This document shows, one piece after another, positions 2,758 through 26,877 of a stretch of 30,153 nucleotides of DNA (positions are counted from its first letter, which is position 1; each line of letters starts with the position of its first letter). The notes below the pieces were generated by a model. That model saw nothing but the letters and a program-made list of their open reading frames with translations, had not been told where the DNA came from and did not search any database. Source of the DNA: a virus; the IMG/VR virus record IMGVR_UViG_3300025647_000179, positions 1 through 30,153 of that record, one strand, 5' to 3'. The position numbers and the translations under genes are program-made.

Positions 2758-2947
2758 AATCAATTAAATCATCTATATCTACATTATATTGTTCAAATAA
2801 TTTATTTATTCGTTCGGTAATTTCCGTATCGGAATTATGTTTCAATTCCCATAATAATAAAGCCATATCTTTAGACTTCATGCTTCTCTTGAAATCTTGA
2901 TTTTCATCAAAATCATTTAGGTTCCATGTAATTACCGCCTTACTCAT
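2756..2947 (-). CDS. Small conserved phage protein (63 aa), function unknown
   Basis: This is a 63-residue acidic protein. The pattern MSKAVITWNLNDFDENQDF followed by a KSKDMALLLWEL helix recalls small phage proteins of the 'KxTLxFxLPEDxxDF ... ALWEI' type that recur near DNA metabolism genes in tailed phages. That is a recognition by eye, with no known function. It is the last gene of the leftward operon. Its start overlaps the end of the upstream 60-aa gene by 8 nt, showing translational coupling, and its stop lies in the shared hairpin. Confidence 0.6.
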   Translation of the reverse strand: MSKAVITWNLNDFDENQDFKRSMKSKDMALLLWELKHNSDTEITERINKLFEQYNVDIDDLID

Positions 2948-3122
2948 ATCGTTCTTGTTTTATGTAAAAATCATCCCAGTAGTCACATCCTTCATCGGTT
3001 TTCCACCAATCAAACGCATCGTGCAAGTCATCGGTTTTTTTGCTGTAGCTATCAGATGTTTCATTTCTTTGGTACTCTAATGCTTTTTCTCTTACTTTTT
3101 GTGGAAGTTCGCTTATTCTCAT
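2940..3122 (-). CDS. Small ISELP-family protein (60 aa), paralogue of 5270-5665
   Basis: It begins MRISELPQKVREKALEYQR and continues with an ETSDSYSKKTDDLHDAFDW segment. The same two blocks open the 131-aa protein at 5270-5665, so these are paralogues. This one lacks the longer C-terminal part and ends soon after a Trp/Asp-rich stretch. Function unknown. The start codon overlaps the upstream GIY-YIG gene's stop as ATGA, and its end overlaps the next gene by 8 nt. Confidence 0.7.
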   Translation of the reverse strand: MRISELPQKVREKALEYQRNETSDSYSKKTDDLHDAFDWWKTDEGCDYWDDFYIKQERYE

Positions 3123-5189: not shown

Positions 5190-5304
5190 ACCTTGGTTTT
5201 ATTATTTTACGATGCACGTCATTTACTGACTCTTTGTTAATACCTCTTTTATAATTGAATTCAATTATTCTATTTATTCTTTGTAGTGGTGACTGTTTTG
5301 CCAT
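5164..5304 (-). CDS. Possible small basic protein (46 aa)
   Basis: This short ORF bridges the gap between the 131-aa ISELP protein and the metallophosphoesterase. It starts MAKQSPLQRINRIIEF and is rich in Lys and Arg (YKRG, HRKIIK, RYGKIYKG), which would fit nucleic-acid binding. It overlaps the upstream gene by 35 nt and the downstream gene by 26 nt, more than most junctions here. Without it the operon would have an 80-nt gap, unusual in this stretch. No family recognised. Confidence 0.5.
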   Translation of the reverse strand: MAKQSPLQRINRIIEFNYKRGINKESVNDVHRKIIKPRYGKIYKGV

Positions 5305-5665
5305 TTAATTGTTTTATCGCGAAGTTTGCGTAGTCTATGATTTTTTTAAAATCTTCTAAATCAGAGTCTTTCTTTCTCCAGTTATACTTATCTATATTTC
5401 CCTTGCAAAACGCAAGGATTTCCTCTGTATTGCAGTTAGCTTCCATTCTTTCAAAGGTATCTATACCGATGTTATATTGTGATGGTTTAGTTTTGATAAA
5501 CGTACCGTGCCATGTAGTCCAAAAGAATATTCCTTCTTTTGTATTTGACCAGCTAAATGCATTTTTCAAATTATCTGTTATTTTACTATAAGAATCATCA
5601 GTTTCCTGTCTTTGGTACTCTAATGCTTTTTCTTTTACTTTCCTTGGTAATTCACTTATTTTCAT
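5270..5665 (-). CDS. ISELP-family protein (131 aa), paralogue of 2940-3122
   Basis: The start chosen is the ATG at 5665 (MKISELPRKVKEKALEYQR). It gives an ATGA overlap with the upstream Cys-rich gene and aligns exactly with the start of the 60-aa paralogue; an ATG 30 nt earlier exists. Residues 1-45 repeat the paralogue (EKALEYQRQETDDSYSKIT then AFSWSNTKEG). Nucleotide similarity is also visible, for example TTTGGTACTCTAATGC on the plus strand in both. The C-terminal ~80 residues (TFERMEANCNTEEILAFC...) are absent from the short copy. Function unknown. Confidence 0.7.
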   Translation of the reverse strand: MKISELPRKVKEKALEYQRQETDDSYSKITDNLKNAFSWSNTKEGIFFWTTWHGTFIKTKPSQYNIGIDTFERMEANCNTEEILAFCKGNIDKYNWRKKDSDLEDFKKIIDYANFAIKQLNGKTVTTTKNK

Positions 5666-5982
5666 AAATTCACTTGTATTTTCATTGTTGGACAACTAAT
5701 TTTGTGATTGCCACCTGTTTGATGACATTTAGGACAGTACGTATCATCTACGCACTTAGGGTAATTACATTCACTTGACGAGCAAGTAGCTCCTTCATGG
5801 CGAACATTTTTACATTTATCAGAATTTACTCCGTTACTCCAGAAGTGACTACAACTCATTTCATCATCTTCGAGAGTAAACGAAGCGTAGGCTTGTTTAT
5901 ATTCATTTGGAGTAGCTGTAAATCTATAGCAATACTTATTAGATGGACACGTTGTGTTTAGGCATAGTGAGATATCTGGCAT
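5662..5982 (-). CDS. Cysteine-rich, probable zinc-binding protein (106 aa)
   Basis: It has about a dozen cysteines in 106 residues, including CLNTTCPSNKYC near the N-terminus and CSSSECNYPKC / CPKCHQTGG near the C-terminus. The closely spaced CxxxC, CxxxxC and CxxC pairs suggest one or two zinc sites. The N-terminal part (CPSNKYCYRFTA) recalls small Bacteroidetes phage proteins with the same opening. Function unknown. Its start overlaps the stop of the 52-aa gene and its stop overlaps the next start as ATGA. Confidence 0.65.
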   Translation of the reverse strand: MPDISLCLNTTCPSNKYCYRFTATPNEYKQAYASFTLEDDEMSCSHFWSNGVNSDKCKNVRHEGATCSSSECNYPKCVDDTYCPKCHQTGGNHKISCPTMKIQVNL

Positions 5983-12585: not shown

Positions 12586-12897
12586 TTAGAATGGCAAATC
12601 ATTTTGTGGTGGCTGTTCTGCTTGAACCGTAGCTGACTTGTCTACTTTCCATCCTTGAATAGTGTTGAAGTATTTTGACTCTCCTTGTGGGTTAACCCAT
12701 TTACGACCTCTTAGGTTTATTCCTACAATTACGTCATCGCCTACATTTACTTTGTCAAGCAATGAACACTTGTTGAACTCGATGCTAATACTCTGTGGGT
12801 ATTGTTCCTGAGTGGTTACTACTAATTCTCTCTTTGAGAATGTTGCCGACACCTCTTGTGTGGCTCCGATAAATTCTACCTTACCTGATACTTCCAT
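12586..12897 (-). CDS. DUF3127-type single-stranded-DNA-binding-like protein (103 aa)
   Basis: The protein begins MEVSGKVEFIGATQEVSATF and contains KRELVVTTQEQYPQSISIEF, then VNVGDDVIVGINLRGRKW. These are hallmarks of the DUF3127 family, a single OB-fold of Bacteroidetes. The C-terminus is a flexible Gln/Pro tail ending NDLPF (99-103), which mimics the acidic DDIPF tip with which bacterial SSB recruits partners. I therefore infer that it is the phage SSB, coating single strands made by the exonuclease and helicases. It has its own terminator, consistent with separate, higher expression. Confidence 0.8.
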   Translation of the reverse strand: MEVSGKVEFIGATQEVSATFSKRELVVTTQEQYPQSISIEFNKCSLLDKVNVGDDVIVGINLRGRKWVNPQGESKYFNTIQGWKVDKSATVQAEQPPQNDLPF

Positions 12898-12962
12898 AAT
12901 ATTTGATTTGATTTGCTTACCTTTTTTACTGTTGTCGGCTATTCAGTTTTTTTAGTGTATTA

Positions 12963-12997
12963 TACTATTATTAAAGTTAAGGGTACGCAATAGTTAG
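12963..12997. repeat. 35-bp border element, copy A
   Basis: This 35-bp sequence ending GGGTACGCAATAGTTAG is repeated at 15751-15785 with three mismatches. It stands immediately left of the first ORF of cassette-like array 1, and its last five bases are the start of that array's first core. It is about 65 nt upstream of the SSB-like gene. It could be an attI-like insertion point or a shared leader/regulatory sequence. Confidence 0.7.
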
Positions 12998-13296
12998 CAA
13001 TAATTATCACGACAATAGTCTTCATAGTCAAAAACACCATCTTTTGTAATAGCTATTCTGTCTATTTTTCCATCTTCGTGTAACCACACTGCAAAAATTC
13101 TATGATTACTTGCTTGTATTGCCATTTCTTTAGCAATATCTTCTTCAAATTCATAATCTCTATCCGACTCAAATTTTGACGAAATTGGTAAAGAATTTTC
13201 TTTTCCAAAAAAATATTTTTCTTTATATTTATTAGTGAATGTATCAGAAAATGTAAATTTCCAATCATCTGTAATAATAGTGCTTCTATATCCCAT
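12994..13296 (-). CDS. Cassette gene 1: hypothetical protein (100 aa)
   Basis: An acidic protein starting MGYRSTIITDDWKFTFSDTF and ending in a Cys-containing tail (DYCRDNYC). It has no signal peptide or membrane helix and no recognised domain. The stop codon TAA lies inside the core sequence (TGCTAAC on the minus strand), a property shared with many integron cassette genes. The start is 11 nt inside the other core. Confidence 0.6.
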   Translation of the reverse strand: MGYRSTIITDDWKFTFSDTFTNKYKEKYFFGKENSLPISSKFESDRDYEFEEDIAKEMAIQASNHRIFAVWLHEDGKIDRIAITKDGVFDYEDYCRDNYC

Positions 13297-13307
13297 AATA
13301 TAACTAT

Positions 13308-13440
13308 TGCTAACATCGGTTTTGCTCTATTGCGGTTTTGGGCATAACTGAATATTCTATTTGTATTTGTTAATTTTGTTTTTAAATCTAAACTTTTGGC
13401 TTACTTCCCCGCAACAAAGCAAAGCCGAGAAACGTTATGT
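13308..13440. repeat. attC-like imperfect palindrome 1
   Basis: The left core is GCTAAC (13309-13314) and the right core GTTATGT (13434-13440). Between them TCGGTTTTGCTCTATTGCGG (13316-13335) pairs with CCGCAACAAAGCAAAGCCGA (13409-13428), 17 of 20 positions complementary. An A/T-rich centre separates the arms. The overall length of ~132 nt is within the known attC range. Confidence 0.7.
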
Positions 13441-13710
13441 GATATATTCATCACCTAAGTAGTCAACTATGCCTTTTGCTTGATTTATTGCTTGATTAAC
13501 AGAAGTAAATCTTCCTCCATCATTGCACTCTCCTAAATTCAAAGGTTGGTTTTTACTTCCGTTTCTATATAAATGACATACTACATCTTTTTTTTCTGTC
13601 CATTTATCTTTCTTTTCGTCATATTCTTCATAAACATTTCTCCAAGCAACTATTTTACTGTTTGAATATGTTTCTTCTTTTAAATCCTCTTTTCTGAAAT
13701 TCCTATCCAT
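13435..13710 (-). CDS. Cassette gene 2: hypothetical protein (91 aa)
   Basis: A charged protein starting MDRNFRKEDLKEETYSNSKI, with WRNVYEEYDEKKDKWTEKK and a C-terminal FTSVNQAINQAKGIVDYL helix. No recognised family. Its stop codon TAA falls within the core (CACATAAC on the minus strand), as for cassette genes 1 and 6. Confidence 0.6.
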   Translation of the reverse strand: MDRNFRKEDLKEETYSNSKIVAWRNVYEEYDEKKDKWTEKKDVVCHLYRNGSKNQPLNLGECNDGGRFTSVNQAINQAKGIVDYLGDEYIT

Positions 13711-13765
13711 AATATATAGGTGTTGGGTTTTATTACTCCGCCCAGAAGTTTATGAAAAGCCCCGC

Positions 13766-13896
13766 CACTAACAACGTGTATAAGAAATGGCGGGTTCGGT
13801 GCTTAATTGATGTTTTGTGCTTCTATTAATGTTTTGTTTTAAATTGAATGTTCTCGTTTCTTAATCCGCCACTTCGCCAAGTTGCAAACGTTGTGG
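13766..13896. repeat. attC-like imperfect palindrome 2
   Basis: Cores are CACTAAC (13766-13772) and GTTGTGG (13890-13896). GAAATGGCGGGTT (13784-13796) is complementary to the arm at 13863-13875 (AATCCGCCACTTC) at 11 of 13 positions. The left arm, CACTAACAACGTGTATAAG and following bases, is nearly repeated at 16362. A second local hairpin, CCCGCCA (13761-13767) with TGGCGGG (13788-13794), overlaps the left core and could act as a terminator on the minus strand. Confidence 0.65.
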
Positions 13897-13901
13897 TGCA
13901 T

Positions 13902-14126
13902 TTAGAAAACGAAAGGCTTTCCATTTACCAAATCAACATTTACAGGATGATAATCATCAATTCCAGTCTTCGATACCATCCAACACCCATCCCAATGGCT
14001 GAATGTGAATGTTCTTTTTGTTCCAGGGCATTTTGTGCACCTAACACGGTCCCCTTCTTTTAGTATTTTCTTAGCCAATAATTCAGCCTTTTTACCTAAT
14101 TCTTTACGCTCTTTTGAAACTTCCAT
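13902..14126 (-). CDS. Cassette gene 3: hypothetical protein (74 aa)
   Basis: The ATG at 14126 (MEVSKERKELGKKAELLAKK) is chosen, because the earlier ATG at 14162 would start inside the attC-like palindrome and cross its core. The protein is a lysine-rich helix followed by CTKCPGTKRTFTF and HWDGCW, then a hydrophobic C-terminal strand (NGKPFVF). The CxxC suggests a small metal-binding or structural knuckle. No family recognised. Confidence 0.6.
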   Translation of the reverse strand: MEVSKERKELGKKAELLAKKILKEGDRVRCTKCPGTKRTFTFSHWDGCWMVSKTGIDDYHPVNVDLVNGKPFVF

Positions 14127-14140
14127 AAGTGGAAAACGCA

Positions 14141-14273
14141 CCACAACACAGTATAAAATCAAGCGGGGTTGCAGTGTCTTTTTGACCGCTTCGGCTGTTT
14201 AAGTTAGTTCGCTGCTGTTCGAGAAGTGTTTGCCGTTCATTCCCCGCCATCTTTTATACTCGGCACGTTAGGG
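14141..14273. repeat. attC-like imperfect palindrome 3
   Basis: Cores are CCACAAC (14141-14147) and GTTAGGG (14267-14273). The arms are AGTATAAAATCAAGCGGGG (14150-14168) and CCCCGCCATCTTTTATACT (14242-14260), complementary at 15 of 19 positions with mismatches clustered in the middle. The 73-nt centre has no long ORF. Total ~133 nt. Confidence 0.75.
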
Positions 14274-14282
14274 TGCATAGCT

Positions 14283-14444
14283 TTATCTCGTCATTAAATA
14301 CATCATCTTTATCTCATAATCTATAAACCCCATTTTTTTTGCGTGTTTATCGGCTAAATCAGGAGTTTTAAAATGTTTAAATGTTAAATCTTCGTTTCCT
14401 TTACGAATGAAATAAACCTCAGGGTAATGTTTAATTTTTGTCAT
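14283..14444 (-). CDS. Cassette gene 4b: small basic protein (53 aa)
   Basis: Starts MTKIKHYPEVYFIRKGNEDL and contains FKTPDLADKHAKKMG, ending in a methionine-rich helix (IKMMYLMTR). The stop lies 7 nt inside the core GTTAGGGTGC. No family recognised. It and the 59-aa gene share one module, separated by a single base. Confidence 0.55.
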   Translation of the reverse strand: MTKIKHYPEVYFIRKGNEDLTFKHFKTPDLADKHAKKMGFIDYEIKMMYLMTR

Positions 14445-14445
14445 C

Positions 14446-14625
14446 TTAATTTTCGTTTATTAATTCATCAATTTGCTCTTTACAGTCGTCAACTGACATT
14501 CCGTGTCTTGCAGCACAGTCACTATCGCTTAAATCGTAATACGCATAATTTACATAACATAAATTTTCATAGTTATAGTCGTTTTTAACTATTTCAAATC
14601 CCTTATAATCTATTGATCCTTTCAT
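14446..14625 (-). CDS. Cassette gene 4a: small acidic protein (59 aa)
   Basis: Starts MKGSIDYKGFEIVKNDYNYE and contains YYDLSDSDCAARHGMSVDDC followed by KEQIDELINEN. Such 'KGxxIxxxD...IDELI' small proteins occur across Bacteroidetes, but no function is known to me. It is the first gene of its module, with a 43-nt gap to the GCACCCTAAC core. Confidence 0.6.
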   Translation of the reverse strand: MKGSIDYKGFEIVKNDYNYENLCYVNYAYYDLSDSDCAARHGMSVDDCKEQIDELINEN

Positions 14626-14671
14626 AATTTTTATTTATTTAATAATATTTTTTTTAATTACCCACTACGCA

Positions 14672-14760
14672 CCCTAACAAGCGTTTGGAGCAAGTTGCAG
14701 AAATTTTATCTTTCTATTCACGCTCTCGGTGGCAACCTGCACCAAGCGCAACCGTTGTAT
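14672..14760. repeat. attC-like imperfect palindrome 4
   Basis: Cores are CCCTAAC (14672-14678) and GTTGTAT (14754-14760). CGTTTGGAGCAAGTTG (14682-14697) pairs with CAACCTGCACCAAGCG (14733-14748) at 13 of 16 positions. At 89 nt, with TAACAAGCGTTTGG on the left and ACCAAGCGCAACCG on the right, this one most resembles chromosomal-integron attC/VCR-type sites. Confidence 0.75.
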
Positions 14761-14780: not shown

Positions 14781-14987
14781 CTACACAATTTTATCTAACG
14801 CCATTTGAACAATATCTTCTGTTTGTTCATTGCTTAATATCTGATATACGTCTATTCCTTGTATGGATATTGTTACGTCTTCTAATTCTGCTGGAGACTC
14901 AGCAAAGTGCCAAGCTTGAAAAGCTGGTTTATGATAATTTCCCTCAACTTCAAATGTTATACCAGCATATTCTACTTCTATTATCAT
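14781..14987 (-). CDS. Small acidic protein (68 aa) coupled to the exonuclease
   Basis: A compact acidic protein, MIIEVEYAGITFEVEGNY, with LEDVTISIQGIDVYQIL and an EDIVQMALDKIV helix. The start overlaps the exonuclease stop as ATGA, so it belongs to the phage core operon and not to the cassette modules. No family recognised. Confidence 0.6.
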   Translation of the reverse strand: MIIEVEYAGITFEVEGNYHKPAFQAWHFAESPAELEDVTISIQGIDVYQILSNEQTEDIVQMALDKIV

Positions 14988-15709
14988 AATTCTTCTTCTA
15001 TAATATAGTTGTTAATGTCTTCCCAAGCCTCTGAAGAATAAAACTTACGCCATACTTCTATTGCAGATAATACTTTTATACGCCCTTGCTCTAGAAAATC
15101 TTCTCCTGGCGCAAATATACCTAACATTTTGGTACTTTTATCAATTACATAGAAAATTAATGGTTTTTCAAATAATTGTTGGTAAATCCAAGCTTGAGAA
15201 TCATAGTTATACTTACGTGCTGACCATTTAAAATCATCAATCTTTGACGTTGTTTTGATATCAATCAAGTACTCGTCTGTAATTATATCAGCCTTTCCTT
15301 TCCACATCGTTCCGTATATCTCTTTAATAGCTGGAACTTCGTATTGGTTTCCTTCTTTATAAATGTTTTCATACATAGTCAAATTTCCCTTCATCACACT
15401 CACGAGTTCGTCAATCTCATTAGCCTCACTACGCAACAACAACATATCTCTATTGCCTCTAGCCTCTTTGTATATGTTAGTGTTACGAGTACTCGCATCA
15501 ACTATCTCGAAGTCAGGTAGCTTGTGAGGTTCTAGCATTGATACGTGAAAATACGATCCGATAAGCATAGGAACAGTCTTATCTTTACCTTTCTTGAAAT
15601 TCTTTGGGTTGTTCAGCAAGTCGTCTATATCCGAGTTGGATAAGAATTGTTTACCATAGGCTCCATAGTAAGACTCGTCATTGTTTAGTTCTTTAATTAT
15701 TTCTTTCAT
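14984..15709 (-). CDS. PD-(D/E)xK exonuclease, RecB/exonuclease VIII-like (241 aa)
   Basis: The nuclease motifs are in order. LIGSYFHVSMLEP (49-61) carries the conserved G-x-x-x-H and LEP. GKADII (138-143) has the first metal-binding Asp (141). LIDIKTTS (148-155) has the Asp-x-Lys pair (150, 152) that replaces ExK in RecB-type enzymes. QAWIY (172-176) is the QxxxY motif. This matches phage PDDEXK-like exonucleases that resect duplex ends to give 3' single strands. No RecT/Bet annealing protein is recognisable nearby; the 172-aa and DUF3127 proteins may be its partners. The gene is flanked on both sides by cassette-like arrays. Confidence 0.85.
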   Translation of the reverse strand: MKEIIKELNNDESYYGAYGKQFLSNSDIDDLLNNPKNFKKGKDKTVPMLIGSYFHVSMLEPHKLPDFEIVDASTRNTNIYKEARGNRDMLLLRSEANEIDELVSVMKGNLTMYENIYKEGNQYEVPAIKEIYGTMWKGKADIITDEYLIDIKTTSKIDDFKWSARKYNYDSQAWIYQQLFEKPLIFYVIDKSTKMLGIFAPGEDFLEQGRIKVLSAIEVWRKFYSSEAWEDINNYIIEEEL

Positions 15710-15750
15710 AGTTTAAAACGGACACTCCGATTTTTTAATTGTTAGCATTT

Positions 15751-15785
15751 TACTATTATTAAATTTGAGGGTATGCAATAGTTAG
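15751..15785. repeat. 35-bp border element, copy B
   Basis: It matches 12963-12997 at 32 of 35 positions and ends GGGTATGCAATAGTTAG, running into the core GTTAGGC (15781-15787) of array 2. A further GTTAGCA lies just to its left (15741-15747). It is about 40 nt upstream of the exonuclease start on the minus strand. Confidence 0.7.
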
Positions 15786-16255
15786 GCGATATTAACGTTA
15801 ACTGAATTTAAGAACCATTCCAAATCCTTCTTGTCTTTTAAGTCAATAAACAAAATTTGATGTCCTTCAATACTAAAATCATCAATTCTCCAACAATTTG
15901 GTCTTTTAGTAGTTCCCATATATTCAATTACCCAACCGATATTATTTTTCCATTCGTATTGTCCACAACTTTCAAATCCTAAACTATTAAAATATATCTC
16001 TGGCTGTTTAAATAATTCTCTTGATAAATTAGGATTTTCATCTGCATTTGAACATAAGTCAGGTAGCGTTTGTCCCATATCAGAAGCTTGCCATTCGTAT
16101 TTGGTTTTACAGCTTTCACATTCATAATATGAAACCCATCCACCATTAGGAGAAGAACCTGTATATTTTATTTCTCCATAATCACATTCAAGACATTTTT
16201 TATTATCGTGTTTCCACCATAAGTCTTTTATTTCTTGTAAACTATATATTTTCAT
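15782..16255 (-). CDS. Cassette gene 6: zinc-ribbon-like hypothetical protein (157 aa)
   Basis: The ATG at 16255 (MKIYSLQEIKDLWW) is preferred, because the longer ORF start (16315) lies in the attC-like arm. Two pairs, CLECDYG (21-27) and CESCKTKYEW (46-55), form a four-cysteine zinc-ribbon pattern. The rest is mixed, with an aromatic WVIEYMGTTKRPNCW segment and a C-terminal LKDKKDLEWFLNSV helix. The stop TAA is embedded in GCCTAAC, the core itself. Function unknown. Confidence 0.65.
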   Translation of the reverse strand: MKIYSLQEIKDLWWKHDNKKCLECDYGEIKYTGSSPNGGWVSYYECESCKTKYEWQASDMGQTLPDLCSNADENPNLSRELFKQPEIYFNSLGFESCGQYEWKNNIGWVIEYMGTTKRPNCWRIDDFSIEGHQILFIDLKDKKDLEWFLNSVNVNIA

Positions 16256-16267
16256 AATAATAACATC

Positions 16268-16328
16268 GCCTAATATCGGTTTAAGCAAGTGTGGCATTAG
16301 GCTTAATCCAAGCACTTGTCTGTTTAGT
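16268..16328. repeat. attC-like site 5 (short)
   Basis: Cores are GCCTAAT (16268-16274) and GTTTAGT (16322-16328). The arms AGCAAGTGTGG and CCAAGCACTTG are partly complementary around CAAGTG/CACTTG. Both cores deviate from consensus, so the site may be degenerate. Confidence 0.5.
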
Positions 16329-16361
16329 AATAATTGTTTTTAAATCAAAGAAAAGCCCCGC

Positions 16362-16447
16362 CACTAACAGCGTGTATAAAAAATGGCGGGTTCTCGGTTA
16401 ATTTAAAGTTTTGTACTTCTAATTAAGTTGTGTGGTTAATGTTAGTG
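16362..16447. repeat. attC-like site 6, truncated relative of site 2
   Basis: CACTAAC (16362-16368) is exactly complementary to GTTAGTG (16441-16447). The left half follows site 2 closely (GTGTATAA, AAATGGCGGGTTC, then a GTTTTGTRCTTCTA stretch), but the right palindrome arm with TCCGCCA is missing. CCCGCCA/TGGCGGG also forms a local hairpin here (16357-16390), with CTTTTC after it on the minus strand. Confidence 0.55.
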
Positions 16448-16461
16448 TTTCAAATCTCACA

Positions 16462-16980
16462 CTAATCAATAAATTGAGATAAGTCTTTTTTAGTTTGTGT
16501 ACTGATTATATATTTAGATTGTAAGTTATTAATTATACTAGCTAATCCGATAGACTTATTTTCTTTAACATACGCAACTACTCTATTCCAATTCTCGTCT
16601 CCATTAACTAATTCATACTTTGTATTTAAAGGCTTATCGTCTGATGACAGCACTCTAAGTATAGATAATCCAAATTCGTTGCCTATACGTCCCTTATTAG
16701 GCACTACACCTATCTCTACCTTAATGTTATTCCAACGGTCTGTGTCTTTAGTCTTAGTTGCTGTTTGTAAGGTCTTACAGTTTGAAGGATTAAGTATCAT
16801 ATCTTTTACTTCTTCTCCATCATCAAACTTTTTCTCAACGAATTTTGCTACTACTTTTTTCTCAGCCTTTTGTAGTTGTACTACTTTTTGAGTTACCGAT
16901 TCTATTGTTAGCGTTACTGGTTTATCAATATCCCAACTTGCTAAATAATCATTCTTAAATGCGTTTCTCCAACTTGCCAT
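16462..16980 (-). CDS. Phage recombination-module protein (172 aa), function unproven
   Basis: Starts MASWRNAFKNDYLASWDIDK and contains a PVTLTIESV strand, KVVAKFVEKKFDDG, then MILNPSNCKTLQTATKT and WNNIKVEIGVVPNKG. The order 'L-x-x-W-D-x-x-x-x-x-x-LTI ... MILN-x-x-N-x-KT ... W-x-x-x-x-x' recurs in a phage family usually found beside exonuclease, annealase or SSB genes and probably forming an OB-like fold. I recall this pattern but cannot test it. It is the first gene of the recombination block. Confidence 0.55.
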   Translation of the reverse strand: MASWRNAFKNDYLASWDIDKPVTLTIESVTQKVVQLQKAEKKVVAKFVEKKFDDGEEVKDMILNPSNCKTLQTATKTKDTDRWNNIKVEIGVVPNKGRIGNEFGLSILRVLSSDDKPLNTKYELVNGDENWNRVVAYVKENKSIGLASIINNLQSKYIISTQTKKDLSQFID

Positions 16981-25024: not shown

Positions 25025-26620
25025 ATGAATCCAAAAGAAATTATCTTCGACAAAGAAGCGCGAGACAAACTAATAAATGGAATTTCTATTATGGCTAAGG
25101 CGGTAAAAAGCACGTTAGGTCCTAGAGGAAATACAGTATTGATAGAAAGCCAAAGTCATATCCATGGAATAACGGTAACAAAAGACGGGATAACAGTCTG
25201 TAAATCAATAGATTTAGTTGACCCAGTTGAGAACTTAGCGGTTCAGATGATGAGAGATGCCGCAAGTAGAACAGCAACGAGTGCAGGTGACGGAACGACT
25301 TCGGCTATTGTTTTGACTGAGGCTATTGTTATGCAGGGTCAGGACTTGCTGAATGACAAGCACAACGTAACGGAGGTGATTAGACATATCAACGAAGTAT
25401 CAAACGGTATTGTTTCAAGTTTAGAGAAGAGATCTCGCAAGGTAAGTGGCAAGACATTGAAGAATGTGGCGTCTATATCTGCTAATAATGATACGGAGCT
25501 TGGCAAGATAATTTCGGATGCGTATAACAAGGTAGGTAAGACAGGTATTGTGACTATTGAGAACTCACAGACAACTGAGACGTATGCGGAGTTCACGGAT
25601 GGTATAAAGGTAAAGAGAGGGTATACGAGTAATTTATTCGTGAATGACCATAAGAATGACGAGTGTATCTTGGACGATGTGTATATTATGGTTACCGATC
25701 AGGAGATAAATAGTATATTATCGATAGAAAAGGTATTGACGCATATTATTAACACGAAGAAGAAGTTATTGATAATAGGACCATGTACTCAGAACGTTAT
25801 AAATACGTTGGCTATAAACGTAGTTAAGAACGGATTGAAGTTTTGCAACATATCACCACCAGAGTTTGGGTACAAGAAGAACGAATTGATGAGTGATATT
25901 GCGTTGTCTGTTGGGGCTAAGTATTTCTCAGAGAGTACTGGCGATGACTTGAGTCTTATTGACGTTGATAGTTTGGGTCATGCAGAGCGTATCATAGTAG
26001 GAAGAGATAGTTCGGCTATTATCAGGTCTAAGGTAAAGGATGACGAGGTGAATGAGCGCGTTAAGCAGCTGTGGGAATCATACTCTATGCAACAACGCAA
26101 GTCGGACCAAGACTTTATCAAGGAGCGTATTGCTAGTTTGACAGGAGGGATTGGCGTTATTTACGTTGGAGGAAATTCAGACCTTGAGCAGAAGGAGCGT
26201 AAGGATAGAGTTGATGATGCGGTGTGTGCGGTTAGGTCAGCACTGGAGGAGGGTATTTTACCAGGAGGAGGACTAGCGTTATTCAGAGAGTCGTATAGAA
26301 TCATTGCTGATGCTGACGATATGATTGAAGATATTAGTGCTGAGCAGTATGTAGCGATGCATATATTGGCACGAGCGATACAAGCACCTTTGTTGCAGAT
26401 ACTTGCGAACGCTGGGTTGGACGGATATAATATAATGGACGATAGTAGAGCTTCGGATGGCAACAACGGATATGACGTTAAGGGTAATGTATATGGAGAC
26501 ATGTATGACATGGGAGTAATAGACCCGTTGAAGGTAACGAAGAACGCATTGAAGAACGCGGTGAGTGTAGCCACGACAATACTGAGTACTAATGCAATAA
26601 TAACAATAGCAAGAGCGTAA
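25025..26620 (+). CDS. groEL: Phage-encoded chaperonin GroEL (531 aa)
   Basis: It is full-length and collinear with bacterial GroEL. ATP-site motifs are LGPRGNT (31-37), TKDGITV (52-58, Asp54), GDGTTS (88-93, Asp89) and RVDDAV with the catalytic Asp at 398; ILPGGGLAL follows. The apical domain is divergent (FTDGIKVKRGYTSNLFVND and beyond), and the C-terminus stops at TNAIITIARA without the Gly-Gly-Met tail. It would fold phage proteins, probably capsid or tail subunits, in the host cytoplasm. groES overlaps its stop, so both are made together. Codon use is visibly richer in G/C than neighbours, producing long antisense ORFs. Other phages carry GroEL; having the co-chaperonin as well is less usual. 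Confidence 0.95.
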   Translation: MNPKEIIFDKEARDKLINGISIMAKAVKSTLGPRGNTVLIESQSHIHGITVTKDGITVCKSIDLVDPVENLAVQMMRDAASRTATSAGDGTTSAIVLTEAIVMQGQDLLNDKHNVTEVIRHINEVSNGIVSSLEKRSRKVSGKTLKNVASISANNDTELGKIISDAYNKVGKTGIVTIENSQTTETYAEFTDGIKVKRGYTSNLFVNDHKNDECILDDVYIMVTDQEINSILSIEKVLTHIINTKKKLLIIGPCTQNVINTLAINVVKNGLKFCNISPPEFGYKKNELMSDIALSVGAKYFSESTGDDLSLIDVDSLGHAERIIVGRDSSAIIRSKVKDDEVNERVKQLWESYSMQQRKSDQDFIKERIASLTGGIGVIYVGGNSDLEQKERKDRVDDAVCAVRSALEEGILPGGGLALFRESYRIIADADDMIEDISAEQYVAMHILARAIQAPLLQILANAGLDGYNIMDDSRASDGNNGYDVKGNVYGDMYDMGVIDPLKVTKNALKNAVSVATTILSTNAIITIARA

Positions 26621-26877
26621 TGATACCAATAAACAAATACTGTGTTATAAACGAGATAAAAGAGCAAAGCCAGACAGAATCTGGCTTAATGCTCTCGGCA
26701 AGTGATTCTGACAAGTTCAGATACAAGAAAGGCAAGGTAGTTAAGGAAGGCACGAATGTTGACTGCGTGAAGAGTGGTGATATGATATATTACGACAAGG
26801 CAGCAGGATTCGAGATGTTGATTGACAATGTAGCCTATACGATTATACTAGAGCGAGACATTGTTCTTGTTCTTTAG
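26620..26877 (+). CDS. groES: Phage co-chaperonin GroES-like (85 aa)
   Basis: Matches the Cpn10 fold: an N-terminal strand, a mobile-loop segment EQSQTESGLMLSASDSDK (14-31) with the hydrophobic GLML tripod that docks on GroEL, then GKVVKEGTNVDCVKSGDMIY and YDKAAGFEMLIDNVAY, ending LERDIVLVL. This agrees with VKxGDxVxYxKxAGxE of GroES. The start overlaps the groEL stop by one base (TAATG). At 85 residues it is slightly shorter than the typical ~95. It caps the GroEL ring; in T4 the analogous phage protein gp31 works with host GroEL, whereas here the partner is encoded next to it. Its end overlaps the convergent gene by 30 nt. Confidence 0.9.
   Translation: MIPINKYCVINEIKEQSQTESGLMLSASDSDKFRYKKGKVVKEGTNVDCVKSGDMIYYDKAAGFEMLIDNVAYTIILERDIVLVL

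Follow-up and report, generated by a model that had tools for sequence, protein, structure and literature searches.

Two short, probable integron-type cassette arrays in a Bacteroidota phage replication operon, probably served by a recombinase from outside

A Bacteroidota phage very probably harbours two short integron-type cassette arrays within its replication operon, with a XerA/IntI-like recombinase supplied from outside the phage. The phage is represented here by the window, a stretch of 30,153 nucleotides of DNA (IMG/VR record IMGVR_UViG_3300025647_000179) that was analysed as a whole. Each unit of the arrays would combine a palindromic site for recombination with a leader and one or two small genes, closed by an AAC core inverse to the unit's own GTT start. 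A tyrosine recombinase of the XerA/IntI type, encoded by an integron of the host or by another phage residing with it, would cut at the AAC core, presumably in single-stranded DNA, and could in this way excise, insert or swap whole units. The entry point is predicted to be an attI-like flank (AAC followed by TATTGCRTACCC), which lies immediately upstream of both the SSB and the exonuclease genes. Since, with respect to attI and the polarity of the sites, the genes are reversed compared with those of chromosomal integrons, they are probably read by phage operon transcripts that run into the downstream phage gene, and not from an attI promoter.

The window is a phage contig that encodes a virion structural protein, a tail fibre, primase, helicase, SSB, an exonuclease and GroEL/GroES, the two chaperonin genes lying side by side at 25025-26877. 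It also contains a small paralogous pair of open reading frames (ORFs; 2940-3122 and 5270-5695), with about 74% DNA identity across 136 nt. Two overlapping IMG/VR contigs extend it, one rightwards (from metagenome 3300022200, identical across 9.3 kb) and the other leftwards (identical across 14.5 kb). Array 1 is found upstream of the SSB gene and array 2 (15782-16476) upstream of the exonuclease gene, and both end directly upstream of these genes in an identical 39-nt flank (TAAC followed by TATTGCRTACCCT..., repeat D2). All array features are on the minus strand, which is the sense of transcription:

12586-12897, minus: SSB gene (DUF3127; Pfam PF11325, E 5.8e-24; phrog_4932), the phage gene downstream of array 1.
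12943-12992, minus: attI-like flank 1 (TAAC followed by TATTGCGTACCCTTAACTTTAATAATAGTA; repeat D2), the invariant end of array 1, which resembles the GGGTAC..AG/TT flanks beside phage integrases.
12993-13314, minus: cassette D, ORF 12994-13296 (100 aa, no known function), start GTTAGCAATAG and own end TATTGCTAAC, a 10/10 pair with the position-11 mark.
13306-13442, minus: attC-like palindrome at the C/D boundary (model R1 63.6 bits, E 1.7e-11, outside the training set).
13430-13772, minus: cassette C, ORF 13435-13710 (91 aa, no known function), recognised from the sequence, with non-matching cores.
13764-13898, minus: attC-like palindrome at the B/C boundary with chimeric arms (model R1 97 bits, a training-set member).
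13890-14147, minus: cassette B, ORF 13902-14126 (74 aa, no known function), GTTGTGGTGC and GCACCACAAC, a 10/10 pair with the position-11 mark.
14140-14275, minus: attC-like palindrome at the A/B boundary (model R1 30.8 bits, E 7.5e-4, or 1.2e-4 with filters off; outside the training set).
14267-14678, minus: cassette A, ORFs 14446-14625 and 14283-14444 (59 and 53 aa, no known function), GTTAGGGTGC and GCACCCTAAC, a 10/10 pair with the position-11 mark.
14669-14760, minus: attC-like palindrome before cassette A (ATACAACGGTTGCGC ... GCTTGTTAGGG), the upstream edge of array 1, recognised from the sequence (fold z about -2.2 to -2.5; under the model threshold).
14984-15709, minus: RecE-like exonuclease gene (DUF3799; Pfam PF12684, E 2.4e-20; phrog_412), the phage gene downstream of array 2.
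15732-15781, minus: attI-like flank 2 (TAAC followed by TATTGCATACCCTCAAATTTAATAATAGTA; repeat D2), the invariant end of array 2.
15782-16273, minus: cassette E, ORF 15782-16255 (157 aa, no known function), ATTAGGCGATG and ATCGCCTAAC, a 9/10 pair whose mismatch is position 11.
16360-16476, minus: attC-like palindrome upstream of cassette E, whose 3' half is common to 13764-13844 (model R1 46.7 bits, E 1.5e-7, outside the training set; repeat D1).
16462-16980, minus: phage gene upstream of array 2, no known function (phrog_21613).

The original prediction of four modules rested on three inverted core pairs matching at 10 of 10 positions, and all three are present in the window (12993/13314, GTTAGCAATA; 13890/14147, GTTGTGGTGC; 14267/14678, GTTAGGGTGC). 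The cores match in cassettes A, B and D, as claimed, but not in cassette C, which starts with GTTAGTGGCG and ends with CACATAAC. Cassette E, in the second array and beyond the range then considered, adds a 9/10 pair (ATTAGGCGAT/ATCGCCTAAC), so that four of the five window cassettes (A, B, D and E) start with an exact or 9/10 inverse copy of their own end. A start that matches its own end is the trace left by recombination of circular cassettes. The pairing has a characteristic anatomy, as position 11 mostly has G in the start and A in the inverse of the end, with pairing resuming through positions 12-15. When a marked pair was defined by seven matches after GTT, the G/A mismatch at position 11, matches at positions 12-13 and a spacing of 150-1500 nt, three were found in the 30 kb window as opposed to one in about 990 kb of the same sequences read backwards; the window pairs are not due to chance. 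Position 16 matches in only 2% of pairs, where chance would give about 25%, positions 14-16 being outside the selection criteria. Furthermore, in 89 cassettes flanked by neighbouring sites, the seven-base stretch that follows GTT agrees with the end of the same cassette at 5.5 of 7 positions, compared with 3.2 of 7 when the pairing is shuffled and 3.0 of 7 across the same palindrome.

The palindromes belong to a widespread site family. The 3' half of one window site matches 18 viral contig stretches, and a looser pattern 50, the matched sites being full palindromes between unrelated genes. A home-made covariance model (R1), trained on 25 related sites, recovered four window sites, three of them outside its training set, although the palindrome at 14140-14275 scores weakly and that at 14669-14760 not at all. 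The same model detects arrays in about 50 viral contigs and in isolated Flavobacterium phages; some of the cassette-dominated IMG/VR contigs may not be viral. It also finds sites in 120 of 296 Bacteroidota genomes, overturning a provisional view that they were nearly absent from chromosomes, which came from an exact 24-base pattern found in 3 genome contigs. No match to the window sites was found in Rfam, nor to the site in plasmid records. Four relatives of the window phage (65-66% identity in the exonuclease protein) contain no model sites and no marked pairs, and one of them (L002) has the flanking genes in the same order with the cassettes absent, as read from its ORFs.

With regard to structure, the window sites taken one by one have unremarkable single-strand folding energies (z -0.3 to -2.5), which, because of the long loops, are unconvincing, so covariation was used instead. 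In an alignment of 128 distinct sites, which was fitted to the model and thereby somewhat favours the structure, 93% of the paired stem cells can pair as against 67% after shuffling, and covariation reaches 0.61, compared with 0.17 for shuffled data and at most 0.13 with slid partners. Compensatory changes are seen in 19 of the 20 pairs of the main stem. The hallmark of attC sites, AAC...GTT palindromes with structure-conserving changes, is therefore found here both by covariation and by the model matches in the window. Likewise, the window holds two or more attC sites and lacks a neighbouring integrase, the defining arrangement of a CALIN, as judged with the home-made model and not with IntegronFinder. 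One of the sites (13764-13898) combines the left arm of one palindrome type with the right arm of another, so that recombination inside sites also happens.

Whole-cassette exchange is directly visible in isolated phages. The Baltic Sea Flavobacterium phages of Nilsson et al. (2020; PMC7077304), described by these authors as lytic, include a Mumin group with the same site family as the window; the main text of that paper does not contain the words cassette, integron or palindrome. The isolates sniff9-1 and sniff9-2 agree at 100% across the 11.7 kb compared, save for one unit with a 439-nt length difference. A comparison of 17 near-identical phages mapped 20 distinct events in which a cassette was gained, lost or replaced, all of them breaking around the AAC core 5' of the palindrome, within 4-15 nt of common sequence, and none at GTT. 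The mobile unit thus comprises palindrome, leader, gene and closing AAC, and each palindrome moves together with its downstream gene. The arrays of this group also have a constant end (TATAAC followed by TACAATATTACATG) that is joined to differing cassettes. The reading as integrase-mediated cassette exchange had been staked beforehand on breakpoints in relatives coinciding with the cores, and every mapped module change in the 17 phages does break in a core, in another phage group with the same site family and not in the window phage itself, whose relatives show only empty sites. What had to be revised is the geometry: a first model of canonical cassettes crossing over at GTT was dropped on account of these breakpoints, which lie at the AAC core 5' of the palindrome, the reverse of the textbook cassette. 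In these phages (L060-L077) the arrays hold several different DNA methyltransferases per genome (five are annotated in filifjonk9-1), which are shuffled among otherwise near-identical lytic phages.

The same breakpoints bear on ordinary phage mosaicism, by which the palindromes would be mere repeats used for homologous recombination or single-strand annealing with the aid of the phage RecE-like exonuclease. Such a process is compatible with the exonuclease gene lying between the two arrays and with the chimeric site, a product of past recombination inside sites. Exchange by homology, however, should leave breakpoints spread over the whole length of the sites (60-135 nt), while all 20 events fall within a few bases of the AAC core; nor does it explain why a cassette start is the inverse of its own end or why an integrase sits beside attI. 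We regard mosaicism of this kind as quite unlikely.

Returning to integron-type arrays, the orientation of their genes differs sharply between phages and chromosomes. Site polarity was taken from the position-11 mark, and a cassette was counted when its longest ORF was 1.5-fold or more the length of the longest ORF on the opposite strand. Genes face toward rather than away from the attI sense in 77:1 phage cassettes and 1:41 cassettes of Bacteroidota chromosomes (Fisher p about 8e-30), in a non-random sample in which loci were chosen for their sites or recombinases and some cassettes are common to related phages, although no group contradicts the trend. With all cassettes included and no ORF filter, the counts are 96:8 and 2:41, and the eight viral exceptions were set aside as uninformative, their ORF lengths differing by only 1-12 aa. 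In the window one cassette passes the 1.5-fold filter, and all three marked cassettes agree with the phage orientation. Taken with the crossover and the attI-like flank, the polarity mark shows the phage genes to be directed toward attI and each palindrome to lie 5' of its gene. The textbook order, attC 3' of the gene and genes transcribed away from attI, is not that of the phage arrays.

This orientation also weighs on the idea that the phage has simply captured standard cassettes from a host chromosomal integron, making a plain CALIN of the kind described by Qi et al. (2023; PMC9892861) with an unremarkable gene direction. The occurrence of the site family in 120 of 296 Bacteroidota genomes fits such a capture, as do the attachment-site clusters on record in virulent phages (PMC9892861). 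Nonetheless, chromosomal cassettes with the same sites face the opposite way (1:41 versus 77:1) and the phage exchanges occur on the side of the palindrome opposite to the textbook position, so that the phage cassettes form a separate pool and are not recent captures; recent capture retains only a slim chance.

As for the enzyme acting on this separate pool, the statement that the window encodes no integrase proved correct, PF00589 being absent from the window and from the contigs that overlap and extend it. Searches of the window phage (three overlapping contigs) and of four Mumin-group phages gave no tyrosine recombinase, and most site-bearing records lack one; for the window and Mumin-group phages the recombinase therefore probably acts in trans. 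In the viral contig L078, by comparison, the last cassette of the array encodes a methyltransferase and has a 10/10 core pair, and a 276-aa tyrosine recombinase has its start codon 51 nt further on. Eight further viral loci, whose recombinase homologues share 42-75% identity, have the same layout: immediately before the recombinase lies an AAC core with a TATATGTA-like motif, and in four of these loci the model detects sites upstream. An attI beside the integrase gene is thus present in the viral loci L089-L097, while the window has attI-like flanks with no integrase, its array ends resembling the recombinase-side flanks of related phages (GGGTAC..AG/TT).

The best NCBIfam match of the L078 recombinase is the XerA/'integron integrase' family. 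Against TIGR02249 it scores 195 bits (cut-off 265) in two stretches, the first of which ends at profile position 179, and homologues in G016-G018 show the same split, resuming near 234-241. As the match is split in two, the IntI-specific segment is apparently missing, and from its sequence the linked phage recombinase appears to be XerA/IntI-like without the extra C-proximal domain of IntI. Many Flavobacteriales genomes encode related recombinases of about 380 aa (query match in 117 of 199 at E 1e-30, a count that includes housekeeping Xer proteins). In the 4.4-Mb chromosome contig L123, one such gene precedes an attI and cassettes of the textbook kind, with genes directed away from it. One Flavobacteriales genome (G213, C1 and C2) contains a related tyrosine recombinase in about ten near-identical copies.

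A tyrosine recombinase at the array end also separates these arrays from single-strand transposition by an HUH (Y1) transposase of the IS200/IS605 or REP type, with the hairpins as recognition signals. Hairpins with short fixed cores do generally resemble such elements, but the single hairpin per unit, the start complementary to the end and the head-to-tail arrays do not suit them, and HUH transposition seems highly improbable.

A broader proposal, to which we would give an even chance, is that Bacteroidota phages own a separate integron lineage, with an IntI-like recombinase devoid of the IntI-specific domain and with reverse-facing cassettes in a pool of their own. Strictly lytic phages would trade these cassettes as a common armoury that changes fast (DNA methyltransferases that counter host restriction are an example), in parallel to host integrons but separately from them. 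The payload of the window arrays may likewise serve counter-defence; PADLOC assigned no defence family to the six cassette proteins and the neighbouring ORF 14781-14987, and the cassette E protein has no relative among viral contigs except within the same phage. In the Baltic isolates, methyltransferase differences follow plating efficiency, and a difference in plating on LMO6 tracks one methyltransferase gene (PMC7077304), which, with methyltransferases in cassettes, makes the link directly testable. If correct, lytic phages would have a cassette-trading system of their own, beyond leftovers of bacterial integrons, and a site-specific mechanism for genome mosaicism and the swapping of anti-restriction genes. 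It also raises the question of what enforces opposite gene orientations with the same sites.

Like integrons with IntI, attI and attC, which are known for spreading antibiotic-resistance genes, these arrays have head-to-tail cassettes, palindromic sites with RYYYAAC/GTTRRRY-like cores, starts complementary to their own ends, precise exchange at the core and an attI-like entry beside a tyrosine recombinase. Unlike them, the phage arrays have genes that face attI, a palindrome 5' of the gene, a recombinase apparently without the extra IntI domain, outer arms of up to 15 nt and fixed mismatches at positions 11 and 16. The belief that little was known of arrays in phage genomes does not hold, since Qi et al. 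(PMC9892861) had already described CALINs, attC clusters with no integrase, in virulent phages, including a cluster with methyltransferases in Polaribacter phage P12002L, which has a Bacteroidota host, and phage attC sites active with the class 1 integrase. The main text of that study includes neither exchange between near-identical phages, nor a linked recombinase of the L078 type, nor a systematic gene flip. Neither reverse-facing cassette pools nor such a recombinase turned up in a literature search that left most subscription journals and bioRxiv outside. Integron pieces in phages are thus already known, while the flipped cassette pool, its recombinase and the exchange between lytic phages look new. 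In the atypical integrons of Treponema (PMC3607928), the integrase and cassette genes also share one direction, but there the integrase points toward attI and the cassettes away, whereas in the phages the cassettes point toward attI and the integrase away. For Bacteroidota, an IntegronFinder survey (PMC9024848) listed only integrases without cassettes and one complete integron. Integron-like arrays nevertheless appear widespread in the chromosomes of this phylum (L123, L128 and L152-L166; Flavobacteriales and others), for which the literature records almost none, and this suggests that many arrays apparently escape the tools now in use. These chromosomal arrays share with the phages the polarity mark, the site family where the model matches and, in some cases, a related recombinase of about 380 aa, but differ from them in that their genes point away from attI and the site lies 3' of the gene.
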